From assembly GCA_004296455.1 (NCBI GenBank), contig AP018280.1:6064794-6128793 (forward strand): a stretch of 64,000 bases of DNA, given 5' to 3'. The translations under genes and the position numbers were made by a program. Under the pieces are notes generated by a model, which saw nothing but the letters and a program-made list of their open reading frames with translations, was not told the DNA's origin and ran no database searches. Source of the stretch: Calothrix sp. NIES-4101. GTDB taxonomy: Bacteria; Cyanobacteriota; Cyanobacteriia; Cyanobacteriales; Nostocaceae. Positions 15,775-52,622 of the stretch are shown here, in pieces. The stretch's first letter is position 1. Each line of letters opens with the position of its first letter.

Positions 15775-18321
15775 TTAATAAATGTAAGCAATCGTAACAC
15801 CAGTGCCACCATCTGCTTGGGCTGCGGCTTCAAATCGGCTGACTCTTGGGTGTTGACGCAAAAATTCATGGACACCTTCCCGGAGTTTGCCTGTGCCATG
15901 TCCGTGAATAATCCAGATTGCTCCACTAGCTTCAGAAATCGCTTTGTCTACAATTATTTCCGAGTCAGCTACCCGTTTTCCGCGCAAATCAACAGTATTT
16001 TTGGAAGTACGAATAATTGGGACTTCAACGGGTGGAACTACTTCGGGAACTTTCTTGCCTGCGTCCCCACGTCCCCGCGTCTTCTCGACTGGTTCCGGCT
16101 TTTTCCCATCTAGCGACTCAATATCTGCCAATTTCACGGTCATTTTCATGATGCCAAAGCGAACGTTTAATTCTCCATCTTCATTGGGTACTGTGATTAC
16201 TTCCGCAGTTTGCCCTAATTTGGAGATGCGAATGCGATCGCCGACTTTCGGCATAAAACCCACAGGTTTGGCTGGAGAATGCTGTTTCTGGCTAAATTTT
16301 GCGGAAATTTGATTTAAGGCATTTGTTGCCTGTTGGGCATTTTGGGCGGTGGGAGTACCCTGTTGTAGACGACGGATAACTTGGGCTATTTCACCTTTAG
16401 CTTGAGTGATTGCCTGCTGGACTGCAACTTCTTGCTCGGCTTTCAGGGATTTTTCCCGCTCTTCTAAATTAGTTGCTTTCTCGGATACCTCTTTGTAGAG
16501 TTTCTCGGCTTGCTGTAATAATTTCTGAGCTTCTGCAGCTTTGGTTTCCTGGCGTTTGCGTTGAGCTTCCAACCCCGCAATAACTTCATTGACTTCATCA
16601 TTTGCGCCACCCATTTCCTGCTTGGCGGCGGCGACGACTTCCGCTTTTAAACCCAAACGACGAGCGATCGCTAAGGCATTAGAACGTCCAGGAATGCCCC
16701 ACAGCAAGCGATAGGTTGGTGACAGGGTTGTTTCATCAAATTCCACGGATGCATTTTCAAACCGTTCGTCTTGATATTTTAAGGCTTTGAGTTCGCCAAA
16801 GTGGGTACTTGCCATTGTCAGCAGCGCATTGTCCGCAAGATAACGCAGCAAGGAAATAGCTAGGGCACTACCCTCCACTGGATCGGTTCCGGCTCCGACT
16901 TCATCCAGAAGAATGAGTGAGGATGGTGATGGGCAGAGAGTGGAATCTGGAGAGGCAGAGACAGAGATATCTACTCCATTTCCTACATCTATCTCCGCGT
17001 CCCCACGTCCCCGCGTCCCCACGTCTCCATTTCCTACCTCTATCTCAGCGTCCCCACGTCCCCGCATCCCCACGTCTCCATTCCCCAATGCCGCTAAAAT
17101 CCGACTAATCCTGCGAATATGACCGGAAAAGGTCGATAAGCTTTGCTGAAGCGATTGTTCATCGCCAATATCTGCCAGTATCAAATCAAACCACGGCAAC
17201 TCGACAGGCTCCCGTGCAGGGATGAATAAACCGACTTTTGCCATCAATGCAGCTAAAGCGAGTGTCTTTAAAGTTACGGTTTTGCCACCAGTATTTGGTC
17301 CAGTAATTGTGACAACTCGGATTTCTGGCTGCACCAGCATATCCACCGGGATAACATCGTGCCCTTGTTCGTGCTGATTTTGCCAGACTAACAAAGGATG
17401 TCTTAATTGCCGTAAAGTAATATTTTCCCGATTGTCGCGATTAATAAAGCGGGGAGGATTGGCTTTGAGCCAGTAGCTATAACGGGATTTTGCGGTGGCT
17501 AAATCTAAAGTTGTAACAATGGCTAAAAGTCTCTCTAAATCGGGCTTGACTGCGGCAACTTCTTCAGTTAGCTTACGCCGAATTGCTTCAGTTTCCACCT
17601 CTTCGCGGCGGATGAGTTGCCGAAGTTGGTTCCCCATGGGGACAACAGAATTGGGTTCAACATATAAAGTTACGCCACTTGTGGAGGTGTCGTGAACGAT
17701 ACCAGGAATTACGTCTTTATGCGAGGCTTTCACCGGAATCACAAAGCGATCGCCACGTTGGGTAATAATTTGTTCTTGTACCGCATTGGATTTCACCTGC
17801 ATGATGTTATGCAGCTTTTGGGTGATTTGACTGCGGACTTTTCGCAGTTCGGCACGGATATCACCCAGTTTTGGACTAGCGCGATCGGCAACTTGCCCAC
17901 GTTCATCGATACATCGGTGGATTTCCTGCTCAATCTCCGGATACGTCCGCAGTTCTGCCACCAAGTCAGTTAAAATTGTCAAATCTTCGTGGCTATCGAT
18001 GACACGCCGTAAATTACGTGTCCCCGCCAAAGTAGTCGCGATCGCCAGTAATTCATCTCCCGCCAAAATTCCTTGGAGTTCCGCCCGTTCGAGGGAATCC
18101 CCAATATCTTGAATCCCCTCAAAGGATAAACCAGAGGTGAGACGACTTTCGAGTTCGTATACTTCTTTTGTTTGTGTGAGTAACTGCTCGCTTTCGGCTT
18201 GCGAGCCAGGAATTTGCAGATGACGAGATGCGATCGCGCCTAACTTTGTCGCCGCAAAAGTAGACAAATGCTGGCACAGACGCGACCATTCGAGTAGTTC
18301 TAGGGTTTCAGATTGAATCAA
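15775..18321 (-). CDS. mutS2: MutS2 (Smr-domain DNA/ribosome-rescue ATPase) with repeat-derived insertions
   Basis: About 848 aa; no ATG is available, so a TTG at 18321 (L-IQSETLELLEW) or 18357 must start it. Walker A is at about residue 340 (TGPNTGGKTVTLKTLAL), signature region STFSGHIRRIS at about 400, and Walker B ILLDEVGAGTDP at about 470. A coiled clamp (about 560-650) and a C-terminal Smr domain (VDLRGKR, HGHGTGKLREGVHEFLR) follow. MutS2 proteins act in recombination control or in splitting collided ribosomes. Between the signature and Walker B lies a foreign-looking insert of about 55 residues containing two 17-residue repeats (NGDVGxRGRGDAEIxVG). A shorter piece, TRGRGDAG, sits in the linker before Smr. 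Both are encoded by G-rich repeat DNA. The core motifs remain intact. Confidence 0.93.
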   Translation of the reverse strand: MIQSETLELLEWSRLCQHLSTFAATKLGAIASRHLQIPGSQAESEQLLTQTKEVYELESRLTSGLSFEGIQDIGDSLERAELQGILAGDELLAIATTLAGTRNLRRVIDSHEDLTILTDLVAELRTYPEIEQEIHRCIDERGQVADRASPKLGDIRAELRKVRSQITQKLHNIMQVKSNAVQEQIITQRGDRFVIPVKASHKDVIPGIVHDTSTSGVTLYVEPNSVVPMGNQLRQLIRREEVETEAIRRKLTEEVAAVKPDLERLLAIVTTLDLATAKSRYSYWLKANPPRFINRDNRENITLRQLRHPLLVWQNQHEQGHDVIPVDMLVQPEIRVVTITGPNTGGKTVTLKTLALAALMAKVGLFIPAREPVELPWFDLILADIGDEQSLQQSLSTFSGHIRRISRILAALGNGDVGMRGRGDAEIEVGNGDVGTRGRGDAEIDVGNGVDISVSASPDSTLCPSPSSLILLDEVGAGTDPVEGSALAISLLRYLADNALLTMASTHFGELKALKYQDERFENASVEFDETTLSPTYRLLWGIPGRSNALAIARRLGLKAEVVAAAKQEMGGANDEVNEVIAGLEAQRKRQETKAAEAQKLLQQAEKLYKEVSEKATNLEEREKSLKAEQEVAVQQAITQAKGEIAQVIRRLQQGTPTAQNAQQATNALNQISAKFSQKQHSPAKPVGFMPKVGDRIRISKLGQTAEVITVPNEDGELNVRFGIMKMTVKLADIESLDGKKPEPVEKTRGRGDAGKKVPEVVPPVEVPIIRTSKNTVDLRGKRVADSEIIVDKAISEASGAIWIIHGHGTGKLREGVHEFLRQHPRVSRFEAAAQADGGTGVTIAYIY
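16976..17077 (-). repeat. 51-bp tandem repeat (two units) inside mutS2
   Basis: Units 16976-17026 and 17027-17077 are each 51 bp and differ at only a few positions; a third partial start (CCATTCCCC) follows. On the coding strand they are G-rich with the recurring GGGGACGTGGGGAC pattern, and because 51 is divisible by three they add two 17-residue blocks without shifting the frame. Confidence 0.9.
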
Positions 18322-18420
18322 GGGAGTCAAAGGGGAAATCTTAAATAATGTTAACAATATTCAGTGGTTCTAATACTTATCCATTGGGTGTAATTTGTTT
18401 TGTGTCACTTTTCCTGCGTT

Positions 18421-27594: not shown

Positions 27595-28095
27595 TTACTC
27601 CTGTCCTGTGATTCCTTGGTTTCTATTAGCTGGTGTTATCAAACCTGGAGGTGGTTCATTAATAATTGCCCAAAATAATCCTAAGCCACGAATAACATCG
27701 ACAAATTCATTAAAATCAATCGGTTTGACAACATAGGCGTTTGTGCCTAGTTCATAACACTGGCTTAAGTCTTGTTCCTCTCGTGATGAGGTAAGAACAA
27801 CAACTGGTATTATTCGCAAACTTGGATCGGTTTTCAGTTGTGATAACACTTCAATACCATCAATTTTGGGTAATTTTAAATCTAGCAGTAAGACAACTGG
27901 GTTCCCTTCACGTCGTAGTCTATACATTCCACGTCGATATAGGTAATCAAGAGCTTCTTCGCCGTCTCTAACCACCACCACTTCATTACCAATGTGGTTC
28001 TCCACCAGAGAAGTCAGGATTAATTCCACGTCATTAATGCTGTCTTCGACTAGGAGAATACGTTTGAGTTCCATTAACCTATCTTGATTCTCCAC
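27595..28095 (-). CDS. Rcp1-type single-domain response regulator
   Basis: 166 aa. The receiver has the acidic pocket LLVEDS, phospho-acceptor Asp in LLLDLKLPKIDG, VVLTSS and K in YVVKPIDF. The C-terminal FVDVIRGLGLFWAIINEPP is typical of Rcp1-like regulators that serve phytochrome-type kinases. No output domain exists, so it probably passes phosphate in a relay. Its first 17 bases overlap the 3' end of the upstream PAS kinase, and it ends seven bases before the hybrid kinase start, indicating translational coupling. Confidence 0.95.
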   Translation of the reverse strand: MENQDRLMELKRILLVEDSINDVELILTSLVENHIGNEVVVVRDGEEALDYLYRRGMYRLRREGNPVVLLLDLKLPKIDGIEVLSQLKTDPSLRIIPVVVLTSSREEQDLSQCYELGTNAYVVKPIDFNEFVDVIRGLGLFWAIINEPPPGLITPANRNQGITGQE

Positions 28096-31069
28096 TCCTT
28101 GTTTCTATCTCCATGGGTAAGGCAAAGTAAAAGGTTGCTCCGCGATTGAGTTCGGCTTCTGCCCAAACACGTCCACCATGACGGTGGATAATGCGCTGTA
28201 CATTTGCTAAACCAACACCCGTGCCTTCAAATCGGGAATCACTATGCAGGCGTTGAAATACGCCAAACAATTTGTGAACATATCGCATATCAAACCCCAC
28301 ACCATTATCTCTGACGTAGAATACTATTTCTTGGCAATTGTGGGGAGAATTGGAACAGGGAAGTGGATCATTTTCGGAGATATGCAGAGGCAGCGAGGGG
28401 GAGAGAGGGGGAGACACTCCCTTGTGAGTCCATCTCTTTGCTAGTTCAACCTCGATTACCCCAATACTGATTTCCGCAACTGGGCGGGTTTTGGTATACT
28501 TAACGGCGTTTTCCAGGAGATTACGCCAGACTAAACGCATCATTGAAGGATCACCAGGTAAAAAGGGTAATGGCTCTATCTGCCAATGAATCTGGCGATT
28601 TTTAAGATCGAGTACCAAATCGCGTTTGGCTTCTTCGACAAGTAAATTCATGTCTAATTGGGTAAAACGTAGCTCGGTGCGCCCCATACGGGAAAATGCC
28701 AGCAAATCGTCAATTAATCTACCTGCTTGTTTGCTGGATTCGGTGATGGTATTGAGATAACGCTGGCTGGTTTCATCGATTTCGGCTTTGCTCAGGCGTT
28801 TCTGTAATAAATCAATGAATCCGGCAATGTGGCGCAGAGGTGCGCGTAAGTCATGGGATACCGAATAAGAGAAAGATTCTAGTTCTTTATTTGCCCCCTC
28901 AAGTTGTGCCGTGCGTTGTTTAACTCGCTGTTCGAGGGTGGCATTCAGTTCGCGGATTTCCGCTTCCGTGCGTTTGCGATCGCTAATATCAATTGTAATG
29001 CCATCGAAGCGGCTGGGTTTTCCTGCTGCGTCCAGAAATGTTTTGCCTTTGGCTTGTAACCAACGAATATTGCCGTCGGGGGCGATTGCCCGATATTCAA
29101 CATCACAGATACCGCCTGTTTTGATTGATTCCTCGACTCCTAAGCTTACTGGTTCGCGATCGTCGGGATGTAACATTTGATAAAATAGGTCAATATTAAC
29201 TTCGGCATCAGCTGGTAAACCAAAGTGAGCTTTGCATTCTTGGTTCCAAATTAAGGAATTGTCTATTAAGTTGTAGTACCATAGCCCAATTTCAGCACCT
29301 TCAATCACTAAGTCTAAACGTTCGCGACTGATTCGCAATGCTTCGGCTTGTTGGCGCATTCTTTTTTCATCGAGTTTGCGTTCAGTAATATCATGGGCAA
29401 CAGCATACATTAAGCCCTCGTCAACTACCGAAACCACATTCCAAAGTATCCATTTGTAGGTACCATTTTGACATCGATAACGATTCTCGAATCCTATCGT
29501 ATTTTTGCCACAAATAACAATTTCGGTTTCGACGGTGGTTTTGGCAACATCATCTGGATGAACAAAATTAATAAACGGTTCCGCGAGAAGTTCTTCTTGG
29601 GTATAGCCCAGAATCCGCTCAAAAGCTGGATTGACAAGTTTAAAATAACCGTCATATCCAATAATACACATCATATCTATGGAAATACTGAAATAGCGAT
29701 CGCGTTGCTTTTCAGCGCGTTTCAGTTCCGATATGTCTAAAATAAATGCTACCGATTGGTCACGGTTATCACCCGTTAAGGTATAACCAACTAATACCTG
29801 TACACGGCTACCATCTTTCCGGATATATTCTTTTTCGTAGGGGGTACAACTTCCCTTTGCCTGCGCTTCAGCTATAGCGATTTCATCGAGGGGTACATAT
29901 TCCGACGGCGTTAAATCAATCCAGTTTATTTCTCTTACCGCCAAATCGGCGCGACTGTATCCAATAATATCCAAGAAAGCATTATTAGTTTTGATAATTC
30001 TTCCGTAGATATCGCCGAACAAAATACCAATCACATTAGAATTTAAAAACAATTCTAAGTATTGGTTTTTCTCGATTAAACACTTTTCGGCATTGACGCG
30101 GTCATCTATATCAGTACAATTACCAAACCACTGTGTAATATTATTTTCGTCATCATAGAGTGGCAAAGCATTACTCATGTGCCATCGGTAGACACCATCA
30201 TTACGCCGCAGACGATATTGGATGTCCTGTAGAGGTTTGCCAGAGTTAACGGCTATTGCCCAGCGTTTGCTGACTTCTGCTTGATCATCTGGATGGACTA
30301 CATGCAACCATCCCAAACCATAACTAGTCTCTGGGGTTAAGCCAGTATAGTCAAACCAACGCTGATTTTGATAAGTAATTTCTCCTTGAGGATTTGCAGT
30401 CCAAACAAATAGGGGCAAGTTCTCAGCCAGGAGGCGATAACGCTGTTCGCTAGCTTGCAAAGCCGCTTCCATAAATTTGCGATCGCTAATATCAATGCTA
30501 ATTCCCACGGTGCCGATAATATTATTGTCAGCGTCGCGGTAAGGTGATTTTGTGGAGATAAAGTTAAATTTCCCTGTTGGTGATGTAACTTCTTCTTCAA
30601 AAACCTGCACCTCTCCTGTTTCTATTACCAAGCGATCGTTTTTAGTGGTTTTCTCGGCATCGGCAACAGATAAAAAATCAGTATCTTGGTAGCCAATGAC
30701 TTCGCTAGCGTCTTTCCCAATAACACGCAATGTTGATGGGTTCGCCATTATCAAACGTTGATTACGATCTTTGACAAAAATTAAAATCGGTGTAGAATTC
30801 ACTGCACTGAGAACCGATAGAGTTTGCTGCAATTCAGCCTCAGTATTGTGAAGTTTACCCTCAATTGTGGCGTTCCCGTGGGCGTTATACCAAACAAGTA
30901 CGATTAAAATTACCGTTAGCAATAGCGATAACAGCAATAAACTAGAGCCAGAATCATAATAATTCGCTTTCTCGCCCTGGAGAATTAACCAGCTACAAAT
31001 GAAGGGTGATGCGATCACAATCAAGCTACAAATCTTTTGAGTTCCCCGTACTGAAGTCCAGCTAGACAT
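28079..31069 (-). CDS. Multi-PAS membrane histidine kinase
   Basis: 996 aa. Two N-terminal transmembrane helices (about 12-30 and 42-62) are followed by about five PAS/PAC units (landmarks DRKFMEAALQASEQRYR, LFLNSNVIGILFGDIYGR, VNPAFERILGYTQEELL, ISRERLDLVIEGAEIGLWYY) and by HisKA with SYSVSHDLRAPLRHIAGF (His at about 740). The HATPase N box NLLENAVKYT, G1 DNGVGFDM and G2 GTGVGLANVQRIIHRHGG show a phytochrome-type kinase core. Between N and G1 boxes, about residues 877-912 form a low-complexity insert (VSPPLSPSLPLHIS) encoded by G-tract repeat DNA (28330-28440). No chromophore domain is seen; the signal is unknown. It is first gene of the relay operon. Confidence 0.93.
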   Translation of the reverse strand: MSSWTSVRGTQKICSLIVIASPFICSWLILQGEKANYYDSGSSLLLLSLLLTVILIVLVWYNAHGNATIEGKLHNTEAELQQTLSVLSAVNSTPILIFVKDRNQRLIMANPSTLRVIGKDASEVIGYQDTDFLSVADAEKTTKNDRLVIETGEVQVFEEEVTSPTGKFNFISTKSPYRDADNNIIGTVGISIDISDRKFMEAALQASEQRYRLLAENLPLFVWTANPQGEITYQNQRWFDYTGLTPETSYGLGWLHVVHPDDQAEVSKRWAIAVNSGKPLQDIQYRLRRNDGVYRWHMSNALPLYDDENNITQWFGNCTDIDDRVNAEKCLIEKNQYLELFLNSNVIGILFGDIYGRIIKTNNAFLDIIGYSRADLAVREINWIDLTPSEYVPLDEIAIAEAQAKGSCTPYEKEYIRKDGSRVQVLVGYTLTGDNRDQSVAFILDISELKRAEKQRDRYFSISIDMMCIIGYDGYFKLVNPAFERILGYTQEELLAEPFINFVHPDDVAKTTVETEIVICGKNTIGFENRYRCQNGTYKWILWNVVSVVDEGLMYAVAHDITERKLDEKRMRQQAEALRISRERLDLVIEGAEIGLWYYNLIDNSLIWNQECKAHFGLPADAEVNIDLFYQMLHPDDREPVSLGVEESIKTGGICDVEYRAIAPDGNIRWLQAKGKTFLDAAGKPSRFDGITIDISDRKRTEAEIRELNATLEQRVKQRTAQLEGANKELESFSYSVSHDLRAPLRHIAGFIDLLQKRLSKAEIDETSQRYLNTITESSKQAGRLIDDLLAFSRMGRTELRFTQLDMNLLVEEAKRDLVLDLKNRQIHWQIEPLPFLPGDPSMMRLVWRNLLENAVKYTKTRPVAEISIGVIEVELAKRWTHKGVSPPLSPSLPLHISENDPLPCSNSPHNCQEIVFYVRDNGVGFDMRYVHKLFGVFQRLHSDSRFEGTGVGLANVQRIIHRHGGRVWAEAELNRGATFYFALPMEIETRSGESR

Positions 31070-35305: not shown

Positions 35306-35480
35306 TTGGAGATGGGGATGAGTAAGGAAACAGGACAGGGGGACATAGGGGTAGGGAGATGTAGGGAAATGGGGAGAGATATGGAAAATCAAATTTTCTC
35401 CCCCTCTCCACTCGAATTTCCCCAATGGGGGCAACCCCCACAAGCAAGTGGTTCCCCTGTCACCCTCCCTGCTTCTGGTC
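35306..35480 (+). repeat. G-tract / C-tract repeat at the 5' end of lptC
   Basis: Purine-rich GGGGGACATAGGGGTAGGG and GGAAATGGGGAGAGATATGG are followed by pyrimidine-rich TTTTCTCCCCCTCTCCACTC. Both the composition and the GGAAAT..GATAT order match the palindromic family at 36632 and 43586. Confidence 0.6.
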
Positions 35481-36631
35481 TTCTCTCCCCTGTGCGTCTA
35501 CTTGTGACCATTTTGTTGACAATAGGATTATTTGCTTGCAGCAGTCCTGGTAACAAAGCTCAACCCAAAAATAAACCCACCGAACAAGCATCTGATAGCA
35601 AATTAACCGTATTTGGTGGTTCTTTCGATGCAATTGACGAGGCGGGAAAATTACTTTGGCGAGTCGATGCCAAACAAGCAAAGTACATCAAAGAAAAAGA
35701 AATTGGTCAAGCCGAAAATCCCTATGGTGAGCTTTTTCAGGATGGAAAAGTAGTTTATAAAGTCACCGCAGATAAAGCAGATATTGAGCAAAATGACAAG
35801 AAATTGGTTCTGATTCTCCGAGGTCAGATAGTGGCAACAGACCCAGTCAACGGGGTTGTATTACGGGGAAATGAATTAGAATGGCGACCCAAAGAGGATT
35901 TATTAATTGTTCGCAACAAACTGACTGGTAAACATAAGCAACTAGACGCAGTGGCTCAGGAAGCAAGGGTAAAAACCCGCGAACAACGAGTAGACTTTTT
36001 TGGTGGGGTGATTGCAAATTCCCTGGAGCCACCATTTCAGGTGCGAACCGAGCACTTAATTTGGCAGGTAAAACAAGAGAAATTAATTGGCGATCGCCCT
36101 TTGCAATTTTTTCGCTCTAAAAATAATCAAATTACTGACAGGGGTAAGGGTGACGCTGCGGATATCGATTTAAAAACAAAAATAGTCACCATTACTAAAA
36201 ATGCCCAAATCGAACTTGCAGACCCACGAATGCAAATCGTCAGTAACTCAATGGCATGGAATCTCAAAACAGAAATTGTCACCACCAAAACACCAATTCG
36301 CATCTTGCATCTCACTGAAAACATCTTGGTGACAGCCAACCAAGGAGAACTGAGAATACCACAAAACACAGTATATTTACAGGGAAAAGTTAATGCGATC
36401 GGGAAACGTCGTCAAGCAATTCGGTCAGATAAATTAACTTGGTATTTAAATAACCAACAAGTGGAAGCCCAAGGGAATGTAGTTTATCAACAAGCCGAAC
36501 CATCCCTAACATTTACTGGTGAAACTGCCACAGGCAATATTCAGCAAGAGAAAATAGTTGTCAAAAGTGGTGGTAGTGGACAGAGAGTAATTACCAATAT
36601 TGTGCCATCGGAACCAAAGAGTGGGGAGTGA
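35381..36631 (+). CDS. lptC: LptC-like LPS export lipoprotein
   Basis: About 416 aa from ATG 35381, which has GGGGAG before it; the frame is open back to 35306, and a GTG at 35492 would start directly at the signal peptide. The segment RLLVTILLTIGLFACSS is a lipoprotein signal with lipobox cysteine. After it come repeated beta-strand units of the LptC/OstA fold (FGGSFDAIDEAGKLLWRVDA, GVVLRGNELEW, LRIPQNTVYLQGKV). This suits the periplasmic bridge that takes lipopolysaccharide from the LptBFG transporter. The DNA before the signal peptide is a G-tract/C-tract repeat, so the true N-terminus is uncertain; an LptF/G gene lies at the end of the window. Confidence 0.83.
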   Translation: MENQIFSPSPLEFPQWGQPPQASGSPVTLPASGLLSPVRLLVTILLTIGLFACSSPGNKAQPKNKPTEQASDSKLTVFGGSFDAIDEAGKLLWRVDAKQAKYIKEKEIGQAENPYGELFQDGKVVYKVTADKADIEQNDKKLVLILRGQIVATDPVNGVVLRGNELEWRPKEDLLIVRNKLTGKHKQLDAVAQEARVKTREQRVDFFGGVIANSLEPPFQVRTEHLIWQVKQEKLIGDRPLQFFRSKNNQITDRGKGDAADIDLKTKIVTITKNAQIELADPRMQIVSNSMAWNLKTEIVTTKTPIRILHLTENILVTANQGELRIPQNTVYLQGKVNAIGKRRQAIRSDKLTWYLNNQQVEAQGNVVYQQAEPSLTFTGETATGNIQQEKIVVKSGGSGQRVITNIVPSEPKSGE

Positions 36632-36741
36632 TGGGAGATAGGGGAGATAGGGGAGATGGGGAGATGGGGAGATGGGAAATCAAAAAAAACTTCAATATCT
36701 CCTTGTCCTCGCGTCTCCTTGTCCCCGCGTCCCCTTCCCTA
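36632..36741. repeat. G-tract/C-tract palindromic repeat, intergenic copy 1
   Basis: Between convergent lptC and the PBP4 gene. Several GGGGAGAT units lead into GGGAAATC, a core ACTTCAATATCT and then CTCGCGTCTCCTTGTCCCCG. Its reverse complement shares the core GGACAAGGAGATATTGAAGT with the intergenic copy at 43586-43680. Confidence 0.8.
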
Positions 36742-43585: not shown

Positions 43586-43680
43586 ATGGGACAATCGGGA
43601 CGTAGTGACGCGGGGACAAGGAGATATTGAAGTCTTGATTTCCCATCTTCCCCATCTTCCCCATCTCCCTCATCTCCCCT
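43586..43680. repeat. G-tract/C-tract palindromic repeat, intergenic copy 2
   Basis: GGGACGTAGTGACGCGGGGA leads to GGAGATATTGAAGTCTTGAT, then TTCCCATC and several TTCCCCATC units. It shares its core, in opposite orientation, with 36632-36741. It ends just before the ATG of the DUF1995 gene. Confidence 0.8.
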
Positions 43681-49271: not shown

Positions 49272-50597
49272 TCACTCATAAACCCTTCCCTTCCAACCAC
49301 CACCACGCCCTTGCCAATGACGTAAAGCTGAATCAAAAGTCATTAAAGTGTAGAGAAAACCAATCATCGGTAAAGAGAAAGCAAACAACGGCGAACATTC
49401 ATAAAACTTAATAGTCGGGTAATAAGCCAAACTCATTAACAACCATCCCAGTAAGCCCAAACCTGCAACTAGCCAATTCCCCGTTACCAAACCCAAAATA
49501 AATCCCACAGGGGAAGCCAGATAAACCACAAACATCCCTATCAATGTTGCCAATAATAAAAATAACGAGTAATTGAGTTGTGTAAAAGCAGTTCGAGCCA
49601 CCATATCCCAGATAGTTTCTAAAGAATTATAAGGTCGCAAACTCTTTGTAAGCGAACTCAATCCCAACCAGATAGGGAAAGATGAAGAGACGTGGCGAGG
49701 GGGAAATAAAGAACTTAAATATCTTTTTTTCCCCATATTCCCATGTCTCCGCGTCTCCGCGTCTCCCTGTCTCCCTATCTCCATATCCCCATTTCCCCAT
49801 TTCACCGCCCCAGCCAAAGCGCAATCATCAATCAAGGCTTCACGAATAGATTCGATTCCGCCAATGCTTTCTAAAGCTTGGCGACGAATGAGAATACAAC
49901 CACCAGCAGCAGCAGCAGTTGATTTATGAGGATTATTAACCCACGAAAACGGATACAACTTTTGGAAAAAAAACACAAAAGCCGGAATTAATAACTTTTC
50001 CCAAAAGCTTTCACAACGCAGTTTCACCATTATCGAAGCTAAATCTAAATTTTCCTGCACAGCCTTGCTAACAAGACGATTTAAATTACTGCAATCGTGC
50101 TGAATATCTGCATCTGTGAGCAAAAAATAATCAGGTTTGAGTAGAGATGCTTGACGAATACCTTGCTCCAATGCCCACAGTTTACCAGACCAACCTGCTG
50201 GCAATGTTTCAGCATTAATTATCCGTAATTGGGATGTTTTTTGTAAACCTTCGGCAATTAACTGAGCAACTTCTCCTGTGCGATCGCTACTATGATCATC
50301 TACAAGGAAGATAGTAAGATTACCAGCATAATCCTGTGAAAGCAACGAAGTCAAAGTTACAGGTAATAAATCAGCTTCATTACGTGCTGGAATGACTGCA
50401 CAGATAGTCGGCAGTGAAGAAGATGGGGACGATGCGGAGATATTCTGTGTCTCACCCTCACCGCGTCTCCTCCTCACCGCGTCTTCCTCCGTCTCCTCCA
50501 ATAAAGGATTTATCCGCCAAAAGCCTCCCCTACCCACAAGTAATACAACCCAGATAACCACAGAAAGAAATGTCAGAACCAATTCAATAACTGTCAT
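49272..50597 (-). CDS. hpnB: Hopene-associated glycosyltransferase HpnB with two repeat-derived inserts
   Basis: 441 aa from ATG 50597 (MTVIELVLTFLSVVIW); upstream frame to 50726 is rejected because the first helix begins at this Met. A GT2 domain has VIPARNEADLLPVTLTSLL, FLVDDHSSDRT, LTDADIQH and LIDDCALAG, with C-terminal membrane helices. Two blocks interrupt it: about residues 32-62 (EETEEDAVRRRRGEG, SSPSSSL) and about residues 267-308 (GDMEIGRQGDAETRRHG, SLFPPRHVSSS) between GAVK and IWLGLSS, where relatives have none or few residues. Both are encoded by G/C-tract repeat DNA (50411-50501; 49674-49799). The gene diverges from squalene-hopene cyclase, 118 bases away. Confidence 0.88.
   Translation of the reverse strand: MTVIELVLTFLSVVIWVVLLVGRGGFWRINPLLEETEEDAVRRRRGEGETQNISASSPSSSLPTICAVIPARNEADLLPVTLTSLLSQDYAGNLTIFLVDDHSSDRTGEVAQLIAEGLQKTSQLRIINAETLPAGWSGKLWALEQGIRQASLLKPDYFLLTDADIQHDCSNLNRLVSKAVQENLDLASIMVKLRCESFWEKLLIPAFVFFFQKLYPFSWVNNPHKSTAAAAGGCILIRRQALESIGGIESIREALIDDCALAGAVKWGNGDMEIGRQGDAETRRHGNMGKKRYLSSLFPPRHVSSSFPIWLGLSSLTKSLRPYNSLETIWDMVARTAFTQLNYSLFLLLATLIGMFVVYLASPVGFILGLVTGNWLVAGLGLLGWLLMSLAYYPTIKFYECSPLFAFSLPMIGFLYTLMTFDSALRHWQGRGGGWKGRVYE
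49674..49799 (-). repeat. G-tract/C-tract repeat embedded in hpnB
   Basis: 126 bases (42 codons), in frame. On the coding strand GGAAATGGGGATATGGAGAT and repeated GAGACGCGGAGACGCGG are followed by AAAGATATTTAAGTTC and TTTCCCCCTCGCCACG. The order G-tract, (A)GATATT-AAGTT core, C-tract equals that of the intergenic copies at 36632 and 43586. Confidence 0.85.
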
Positions 50598-50714
50598 AGA
50601 CCTAGTGCAAGCGATCGCGGTAACATAAGAAAATACGATTTCTCTTTCGCAAGAGACAATACAAGCCATTTTGCTGCCGTATCCACACCTATTTTGGAGA
50701 CTGAGTAGTATTTC

Positions 50715-52622
50715 ATGCAAACTCAAGACAGGGTAATCGCCTCAAAAATTCCAGCAGCCATCACAGCCAGTCAGAACTATCTTCTTTCCATTCAATACCC
50801 TGATGGTTACTGGTGGGCAGAATTGGAATCAAATGTCACGATTACTGCCGAGGTTGTGCTGTTGCACAAGATTTGGGGAACAGACAACACCCGCCCCCTC
50901 CACAAAGCAGAAAAATATTTGCGCTCTCAGCAACGAGTACATGGTGGCTGGGAGCTTTTTTATAATGATGGCGGTGATTTGAGTACTTCTGTTGAAGCCT
51001 ATATGGCTTTAAAATTATTGGGAGTACCGGAATTTGACCCGGCGATGCTAAAAGCGCGAGATTTCATTGTCAAACGCGGTGGCATCAGCAAAACCCGGAT
51101 TTTTACCAAGTTCCATCTCGCCTTAATTGGCTGTTATAGCTGGCGCGGTATCCCTTCCTTACCTCCTTGGGTAATGTTACTGCCAGAAAATTTTTGGTTT
51201 AATATCTACGAATTATCCAGTTGGGCGCGTTCCAGCACCGTCCCCTTGTTAATTGTCTTTGACAAAAAACCTGTTTACGTTACCAATCCTGCCATCTGTT
51301 TAAACGAACTCTATTCAGAAGGGGTAGAAAATATCAAGTATGAATTACCCCGTAATCACAATTGGACGGATATCTTCTTAGGATTGGATGAAGCTTTTAA
51401 ATTTGCTGAGAATTTCAACTTAATTCCCTTCCGCGAAGCCGGTATCCAAGCGGCAGAACGTTGGATATTAGAACGACAGGAAGTAAGCGGAGACTGGGGA
51501 GGAATTATCCCGGCGATGCTGAATTCAATGTTAGCTTTACGATCGCTTGGTTACGATGTGAATGACCCCATAGTTTTACGCGGACTCCAGGCGATCGATA
51601 ATTTTGTCATTGAAACTACTGATACATATTGTGTCCAACCTTGCGTTTCTCCGGTGTGGGATACTGCTTGGGTGATGCGATCGCTGATTGAATCTGGGAT
51701 TGCTCCCGACCATCCAGCTATTGTACGTGGTGGTGAATGGTTACTCCAAAAACAGATTTTTGATTACGGTGACTGGGCGGTAAAAAATAAACGTGGTCAA
51801 CCAGGAGCCTGGGCATTTGAGTTTGAGAATCGCTTTTATCCTGACGTGGATGATACTGCTGTTGTGGTGATGACACTGGCACTCGCTAAACTCCCCAATG
51901 AAAAACTCAAACAAGCCGCAATGACGAGGGCAATCAATTGGGTAGCCACAATGCAATGTCAAGGTGGCGGTTGGGCAGCCTTTGACATGGATAACGATCA
52001 AGATTGGTTGAATCTCCTACCCTATAGTGACCTAAAAGCAATGATTGACCCAAATACGGCGGATGTCACCTCCCGCGTATTAGAAATGTTGGGTTGTTGC
52101 GACACATCAATCAACGAAGATGATTTCAACCGTGCCCTTGATTATCTTCTTCGCGAGCAAGAACCTTCAGGTTGCTGGTTTGGGCGTTGGGGAGTTAATT
52201 ACATTTACGGTACTAGCGGCGCATTGTCAGCCCTCGCTTTAATTGCCCCGCAACAACGCCAAAGCATTACACGGGGTGCAAACTGGTTGGTATCTTGCCA
52301 AAATCCAGATGGAGGTTGGGGTGAAACCTGTCAAAGCTACAAAGACTCCAGTTTGAAGGGAAAAGGTAACAGCACAGCATCACAAACAGCTTGGGCATTA
52401 ATCGGTTTGCTCGCGGCGGCGGAAGTGGTGGGTGATTTTGCCCAAGATGCAATTCAACGTGGTGTCAATTACTTAGTCACAACTCAACACACCGATGGCA
52501 CTTGGAATGAAGATGAATTTACAGGAACAGGTTTCCCCTGTCATTTTTATCTTAAGTACCATTTTTATCAACAATACTTTCCTTTGCTGGCACTGGGGCG
52601 CTATCAAAAACAGTTTGCTTAA
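50715..52622 (+). CDS. shc: Squalene-hopene cyclase
   Basis: 635 aa. The catalytic DxDD motif is YPDVDDTAVVVMTL (about residue 377), which protonates squalene. Several QW motifs of the triterpene cyclase fold are seen (QYPDGYWWAELE, QRVHGGWELF, QCQGGGWAAFD, QNPDGGWGE, QHTDGTWNE). Length is normal. It is a monotopic membrane enzyme producing hopene and hopanol. It is divergent to hpnB with a 118-base promoter region, and a squalene/phytoene synthase gene lies downstream on the same strand. Confidence 0.97.
   Translation: MQTQDRVIASKIPAAITASQNYLLSIQYPDGYWWAELESNVTITAEVVLLHKIWGTDNTRPLHKAEKYLRSQQRVHGGWELFYNDGGDLSTSVEAYMALKLLGVPEFDPAMLKARDFIVKRGGISKTRIFTKFHLALIGCYSWRGIPSLPPWVMLLPENFWFNIYELSSWARSSTVPLLIVFDKKPVYVTNPAICLNELYSEGVENIKYELPRNHNWTDIFLGLDEAFKFAENFNLIPFREAGIQAAERWILERQEVSGDWGGIIPAMLNSMLALRSLGYDVNDPIVLRGLQAIDNFVIETTDTYCVQPCVSPVWDTAWVMRSLIESGIAPDHPAIVRGGEWLLQKQIFDYGDWAVKNKRGQPGAWAFEFENRFYPDVDDTAVVVMTLALAKLPNEKLKQAAMTRAINWVATMQCQGGGWAAFDMDNDQDWLNLLPYSDLKAMIDPNTADVTSRVLEMLGCCDTSINEDDFNRALDYLLREQEPSGCWFGRWGVNYIYGTSGALSALALIAPQQRQSITRGANWLVSCQNPDGGWGETCQSYKDSSLKGKGNSTASQTAWALIGLLAAAEVVGDFAQDAIQRGVNYLVTTQHTDGTWNEDEFTGTGFPCHFYLKYHFYQQYFPLLALGRYQKQFA

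Follow-up and report, generated by a model that had tools for sequence, protein, structure and literature searches.

The window analysed here is a stretch of 64,000 nucleotides from the genome of Calothrix sp. NIES-4101. It contains hpnB, coding for a hopanoid-associated glycosyltransferase and recognised by TIGR03469 with 551.6 bits against a cut-off of 379.25, and an adjoining squalene-hopene cyclase gene (TIGR01507). The hpnB open reading frame comprises 484 amino acids on the minus strand; we infer that the true start of the gene lies further in than the start of the frame. A repeat, hereafter element A, is embedded in hpnB (Table 1). A first-pass annotation of the same DNA had described it as a 126-base in-frame element without stop codon, and this is borne out: its 126 nt fill exactly the interval between the codons of AVK and those of IWLG, and none of its 42 codons is a stop. 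The proposed position inside the GT2 domain applies to the C-terminal edge of the domain and not to its middle (Pfam GT2 match 110-288, GT21 match 176-309). Likewise, the 42 codons reported to be added are there, but the net gain relative to two same-genus genomes (G001 and G002) is 35 residues, because a linker of seven residues (21 nt) already occupies the site in both of their genes. Small GGG..CCC or TTGG..CCAA pairs are also present at this site in the same-genus genes. Comparison by eye with these two sites without element revealed no target duplication beside element A. A second element-like insert in hpnB, overlooked in the first-pass annotation together with two arrays in mutS2, separates FW from PARNE; 42 residues lie between these motifs in the window protein versus 25 in each same-genus genome.

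Table 1. Genes, elements and octamer arrays in the window
Feature	Position	Strand	Description
hpnB	49272-50726	minus	hopanoid-associated glycosyltransferase, TIGR03469 match
Element A	49674-49799	minus	G-rich octamers, AT-rich core, C-rich arm; 126 nt (42 codons) in hpnB
Second hpnB insert	about 50420-50499	minus	element-like, between FW and PARNE
Copy B	36632-36741	none	intergenic, LptC-like gene on one side, S13 peptidase gene on the other
Copy C	43586-43680	none	intergenic, just upstream of DUF1995 gene
mutS2	15775-18357	minus	860 aa, octamer arrays in frame
mutS2 array	16984-17090	minus	shortly before LLDEVGAG motif
Short mutS2 array	16056-16087	minus	residues about 757-767
Array in PAS histidine kinase gene (28079-31069)	28373-28414	minus	in HATPase domain match

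Two intergenic copies, B and C, had been called identical in layout to element A. This holds for the layout of G tract, core and C tract and not for the sequence. The core pattern GATATTNAAGT...ATTTCC has three exact matches in the 7.59-Mb genome, namely A, B and C, all in the window, and none in the reversed control. The three core copies measure 95-126 bp and span about 13 kb, B lying about 13 kb and C about 6 kb from element A. A profile made from A, B and C recovers its three sources at E 3e-7 or better, as expected by construction; beyond these, it detects only weak kin (E 0.02, 0.34 and 0.38) in 1.263 Mb of the genome, a sample consisting of three stretches plus the window. A second core (GGAGATTAATAAAA...CTCTTTCTT) is common to six copies elsewhere in the genome, and a profile from these six found no further copies. 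Beside the matching genes of G001 and G002, inspection by eye found other DNA in place of copies B and C, and in front of the DUF1995 gene both genomes have separate runs of CCCAAT type. With its 3′ end, the LptC-like reading frame extends into copy B (window 36610-36632), and its last residues are unlike those in G001 and G002. An octamer array also lies within the first residues of this frame (window 35336-35385), whose true start is probably downstream of the array.

The arms are built from units with a period of 8 in this genome. Three consecutive TCTCC units at a spacing of 8 were matched 92 times in the genome, compared to five times for the reversed pattern. The same-genus genomes yielded 1 and 2 such matches, numbers that may be low because both are draft genomes, in 800 and 310 contigs. 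In the 1.263-Mb sample, a unit profile at score 20 returned 111 arrays versus 13 in the reversed sequence, so that about 12% of the calls may be due to chance. Merging of the arrays resulted in 99 elements, 78 of them with one array only. Among the 21 multi-array elements, 18 have the order G then C, and the orders CG, CC and GG occur once each. In the 78 single-array elements, a weak G arm (score >8) was found upstream of the C arm 13 times and downstream once. Thus the palindromic order is genuine, even if a single arm is all that can be recognised in most elements; the number of octamers differs freely between copies. Similar DNA, on which the first-pass idea of a repeat depended, is thus present in the genome: the core matches B and C, and octamer arms occur genome-wide. 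The notion of one dispersed family had to be restated, however. The arms fit it, whereas cores are local, and the exact core of element A marks a group of three confined to the window. Genes were predicted in the sample from codon usage, and about 80% of the DNA is coding; 19 elements lie inside genes, 6 overlap a gene and the other 74 are intergenic. The elements avoid coding DNA, but coding DNA is not closed to them.

Stop codons are rare in the octamers. Among the 25 commonest units, 21 are free of stops in all six frames. In 24-mers taken from arrays, 5.47 of six frames are open, compared to 4.04 in random ones; the share with every frame open is 59% and 8.5%, respectively. Complete elements retain 4.34 of six open frames, compared to 2.20 for intergenic DNA of equal length; in the G-then-C elements the figure is 2.44 versus 0.62 in length-matched intergenic DNA. 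As octamers seldom contain stops, insertion into a gene mostly hinges on length modulo 3. Folding energies relative to shuffled sequences gave z values of −2.51 (coding strand) and −4.05 (other strand) for element A, −3.06 for copy B and −2.67 for the mutS2 array. Copy C folds no better than its shuffles (+0.87) and the second hpnB insert hardly so (−1.32). This supports a hairpin for A and B, not for C.

Orthologue comparison revealed in-frame insertion in several unrelated conserved genes: twice in hpnB, in mutS2, twice in a FadE-like dehydrogenase gene and once in an acyl-CoA-ligase-like gene. The mutS2 spacer preceding LLDEVGAG measures 180 nt here versus 117 and 114 nt in the same-genus genomes. 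Because C-rich runs are present in the same-genus spacers too, the array in the window lengthens a spacer that was already filled with repeats. Of 30 mutS2 loci examined, motif recognition failed in five; all 25 measurable loci are in frame, with spacers of 33-180 nt, and in the 17 that hold both kinds of run the G run always comes first. The 19 in-gene elements of the sample correspond to 14 genes, 13 of which were scanned with Pfam and four compared with orthologues. Arrays were located within Pfam matches including UPF0182, GH38 and the HATPase domain. For the FadE-like and acyl-CoA-ligase-like genes, close orthologues occurred in G023 only, out of four genomes searched. Relative to G023, the FadE-like dehydrogenase has two in-frame inserts and the acyl-CoA-ligase-like protein one; another array of the ligase-like protein coincides with a region that is longer in G023 and represents no clear insert. 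Three neighbouring TPS-domain proteins (C1:2888490, 2893108 and 2896373; L087) carry an array after a near-identical peptide, and these arrays were probably duplicated along with their genes.

To place the hpnB insert among relatives, 104 hpnB loci were considered. Strict motifs failed in 10 of these, and looser motifs left 102 measurable, the remaining two being L225, cut off by the end of its contig, and L234 (G088), which has internal stops. With its several stops, the hpnB of L234 looks broken. The frame is intact and stop-free in all 102 loci with both motifs; loci without either motif are uncounted, so that this figure refers to recognisable genes only. No hpnB match at 1e-70 was obtained in 32 of 135 genomes of the family, and family matches at contig edges (G102, G109) as well as eight strong matches outside the family were left out. 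The tree was calculated by quick search under LG+G4, without mixture model, from 100 HpnB proteins with the insert removed; of 104 rows, L225 and L234 had been dropped by hand and L055 and L236 by motif.

In this tree, the window protein and the two same-genus proteins form a clade (SH-aLRT 98). Since the same-genus pair and also the six next rows (18-36 nt, i.e. <14 aa) are short at the site, a gain of element A on its own branch is the simplest reading of the tree. At least 14 residues occupy the site in 39 of the 100 proteins and fewer in 61, and the first-pass expectation that most cyanobacterial HpnB proteins would not share these residues agrees with this count. Loop length changed state at least 11 times on the tree, which does not distinguish gain from loss. 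The idea that all genera inherited one ancestral insertion was rejected, as the insert studied here stands separately on the tree. A AATTCTTC-like core, by eye common to several genera at the site, suggests that one older insertion may underlie the inserts of those genera.

The loop is filled with repeats in many genera, and the units differ between them. Both GGG and CCC runs are present in 28 of the 39 long inserts and the G run comes first in 27, the exception being L150 with C first; the other 11 inserts are devoid of one or both kinds. At least two runs of each kind were counted in 20 of 39 inserts (51%) versus 10% of random segments from the same loci. Heptamer-like units also occur in inserts of relatives. 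Insert lengths of 21-41 aa occur side by side in one starred clade (L032, L135, L136, L138, L140) and lengths of 31-62 aa in another (L040, L141, L148, L198), with differing sequences in each. L053 (G038) has a 148-aa Asn/Gln-rich insert in the hpnB loop; GGG runs are lacking there, and CCC occurs in three runs close to the end of the insert. The inserts of L141 and L198 contain another stretch resembling a repeat, ACAGACGCGATAACC...GTCTCTAC, which occurs twice in L198. Different repeat types use one and the same hpnB loop in these two loci.

The best reading of these data, to which we assign a probability of about 0.72, is that element A is a small non-coding palindromic repeat that exposed loops tolerate and that is presumably translated there. 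It would be a copy of a hairpin-type dispersed repeat in which octamers like GGGGAGAT or GCGGAGAC are followed by an AT-rich core and roughly complementary octamers. The copy would have arrived in hpnB after the split from the two same-genus genomes and would have been kept owing to its linker position and the frame left open. Its arms may lengthen and shorten by slippage of units, with selection removing lengths that break the frame, and translation of the element would place about 35 additional residues between the membrane part and the glycosyltransferase domain. Within this scheme we infer the translation, the arrival by copying, the arm slippage and the neutrality for the enzyme, and likewise the mobility. 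Against it speak the failure to see a target duplication or a transposase tie, the poor folding of copy C and of the second hpnB insert, and the single array of 78 of the 99 elements.

The strongest competitor dispenses with a mobile unit: a short pair of G run and C run in a variable linker could have expanded in place through replication slippage and hairpin-templated copying. The short pairs at the same-genus hpnB site would be a suitable starting point, the octamer number is free to vary among copies, the region upstream of the DUF1995 gene has its own CCCAAT-type runs in both same-genus genomes, and the same hpnB loop became filled with differing units in many genera. However, the AT-rich core of element A recurs in B at a distance of about 13 kb and in C at about 6 kb, and the second core is common to six copies, whereas slippage alone copies no core between loci. 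For the arms, growth by slippage is a serious alternative, but it does not explain the shared cores, and as an account of the whole element we regard it as unlikely.

Two other explanations concern the enzyme itself. Decay of hpnB, with a frame that is open merely by chance, gains some plausibility from the stop-poor nature of the elements (4.34 open frames versus 2.20). Yet dN/dS relative to G002 is about 0.13 upstream (0.127/0.96) and 0.12 downstream (0.113/0.93) of the insert, values that also cover the time before insertion, so that downstream codons are as constrained as upstream ones. Moreover, both separate inserts keep the frame and the HpnB score lies far above the TIGR03469 cut-off. 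Given codon constraint and intact frame, decay was set aside as the least probable of all explanations. Scarcely more probable is a functional linker, in which lengthening of the loop was adaptive and repeat DNA served as mere raw material. A total of 39 long loops and at least 11 state changes might be expected from such selection, but lengths of 21-41 and 31-62 aa with unlike sequences within single clades, and very low model confidence over the inserts, argue against it. The AlphaFold model of HpnB, based on the window protein and eight related loci, has a mean pLDDT of 78.5. Values below 50 occur at the C-terminus (477-484) and in three segments that take in both inserts (80-83, 88-102 and 314-348). 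The flanks of the main insert, a helix at 300-311 and a strand at 352-362, reach higher confidence (block means of 85 and 87). As the insert positions are largely or wholly empty in the other eight sequences, low pLDDT provides weak evidence that the inserts may be disordered.

Similar DNA lies in frame at the same hpnB loop of many relatives and inside a few other conserved enzymes, so that protein loops seem to be extended recurrently by repeats while the genes stay unbroken. We tentatively extend this to a broader proposal, which we consider possible at somewhat less than even odds: in heterocystous cyanobacteria, frame-transparent hairpin repeats would enter coding DNA, become translated and fill the same enzyme loops (HpnB before IWLG, MutS2 before LLDEVGAG) repeatedly and independently in many genera, and natural mutagenesis of loop length would act constantly on the evolution of proteins.

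Rickettsia is the best-known source of in-frame palindromic repeats. The excerpts available to us describe Rickettsia palindromic elements (RPEs) as about 150 bp long and present in genes 44 times in R. conorii (PMC10969869), with ten families of palindromic sequences lying in frame inside unrelated genes and apparently tolerated (PMC10969869, PMC3733652). The likeness to RPEs put forward in the first-pass annotation is apt as far as behaviour is concerned, judged by description: palindromic layout, in-frame position within conserved genes and no stop codon. In contrast to RPEs, the Calothrix arms are variable octamer arrays, 74 of 99 elements are intergenic and repeats occupy the same loops across many genera. 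By analogy, the element would work like RPEs and intragenic REPs; membership in the RPEs is not claimed. REPs of the GTAG/CGTC families are small palindromes found in many genes, often those for DNA synthesis or repair, and in the recB genes of two Xanthomonas species different REPs occupy about one site; the intragenic ones measure 20-40 bp and have a GTAG or CGTC end (excerpts of PMC3733652). Element A and its relatives are not REPs, as by eye their ends vary with none fixed, and core copies are 95-126 bp long.

Within the same phylum, the heptamer repeats GGGGA(C/T)T of Nostoc allow a further comparison. According to excerpts of the respective report, they are G-rich, genome-wide, over-represented in non-coding DNA and variable in unit number, and only few paired repeats are able to form inverted repeats (PMC4692102). 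The Calothrix octamers resemble them in being short, G-rich, genome-wide and variable in unit number, and differ in their period of 8 from the tandem 7-bp units of STRR/Nostoc heptamers. The excerpted text makes no mention of in-frame insertion of Nostoc heptamers in conserved enzymes (PMC4692102). Excerpts of a further source state, second-hand, that small dispersed repeats of cyanobacteria are some 20 bp long (PMC2884548), which by description makes them smaller than the Calothrix element. REPINs and MITEs are non-autonomous hairpin or inverted-repeat elements according to excerpts (PMC3116915, PMC10969869). The ends of the Calothrix element are not constant, unlike theirs; compared to a MITE, its arms are inverted but variable, and no target duplication was visible by eye beside element A. 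A tie to a transposase, sought via PF01797 (Y1) in this and the two same-genus genomes, was not found: PF01797 counts of 2, 2 and 6 do not parallel the 92, 1 and 2 repeat matches. Elhai et al. (2008) reportedly described repeats of very small size and possible mobility in the genomes of cyanobacteria. The literature searched, seen partly as excerpts and with Elhai et al. outside its scope, held no report of a coding-embedded repeat of the present kind in cyanobacteria, which is no proof of absence.

For the study of in-frame palindromic repeats, Calothrix sp. NIES-4101 adds a second lineage that is very different from Rickettsia. With 92 strict matches, the octamer repeat is abundant in this species, whereas the two same-genus genomes have hardly any (1 and 2) and provide element-free sites for comparison. 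Hence, it becomes testable what copies such repeats and whether a translated repeat is harmless. The repeats also account for low-complexity stretches in predicted proteins, e.g. TRGRGDAE and SPHLRVSPSP, that can mislead annotation and structure prediction. Octamer arrays were seen by eye amid at least three other types of dispersed repeat with flanks of their own, TTTCTCCAAAATCTGGCAACA..., ATCATGTTCGGCTAATCACTTACAATTAAAATT... and CTGACTTGAAAGAGTCATTCG... (e.g. L005, L011, L012 about 1475-1600), as if octamer units were entering or growing inside other small elements.
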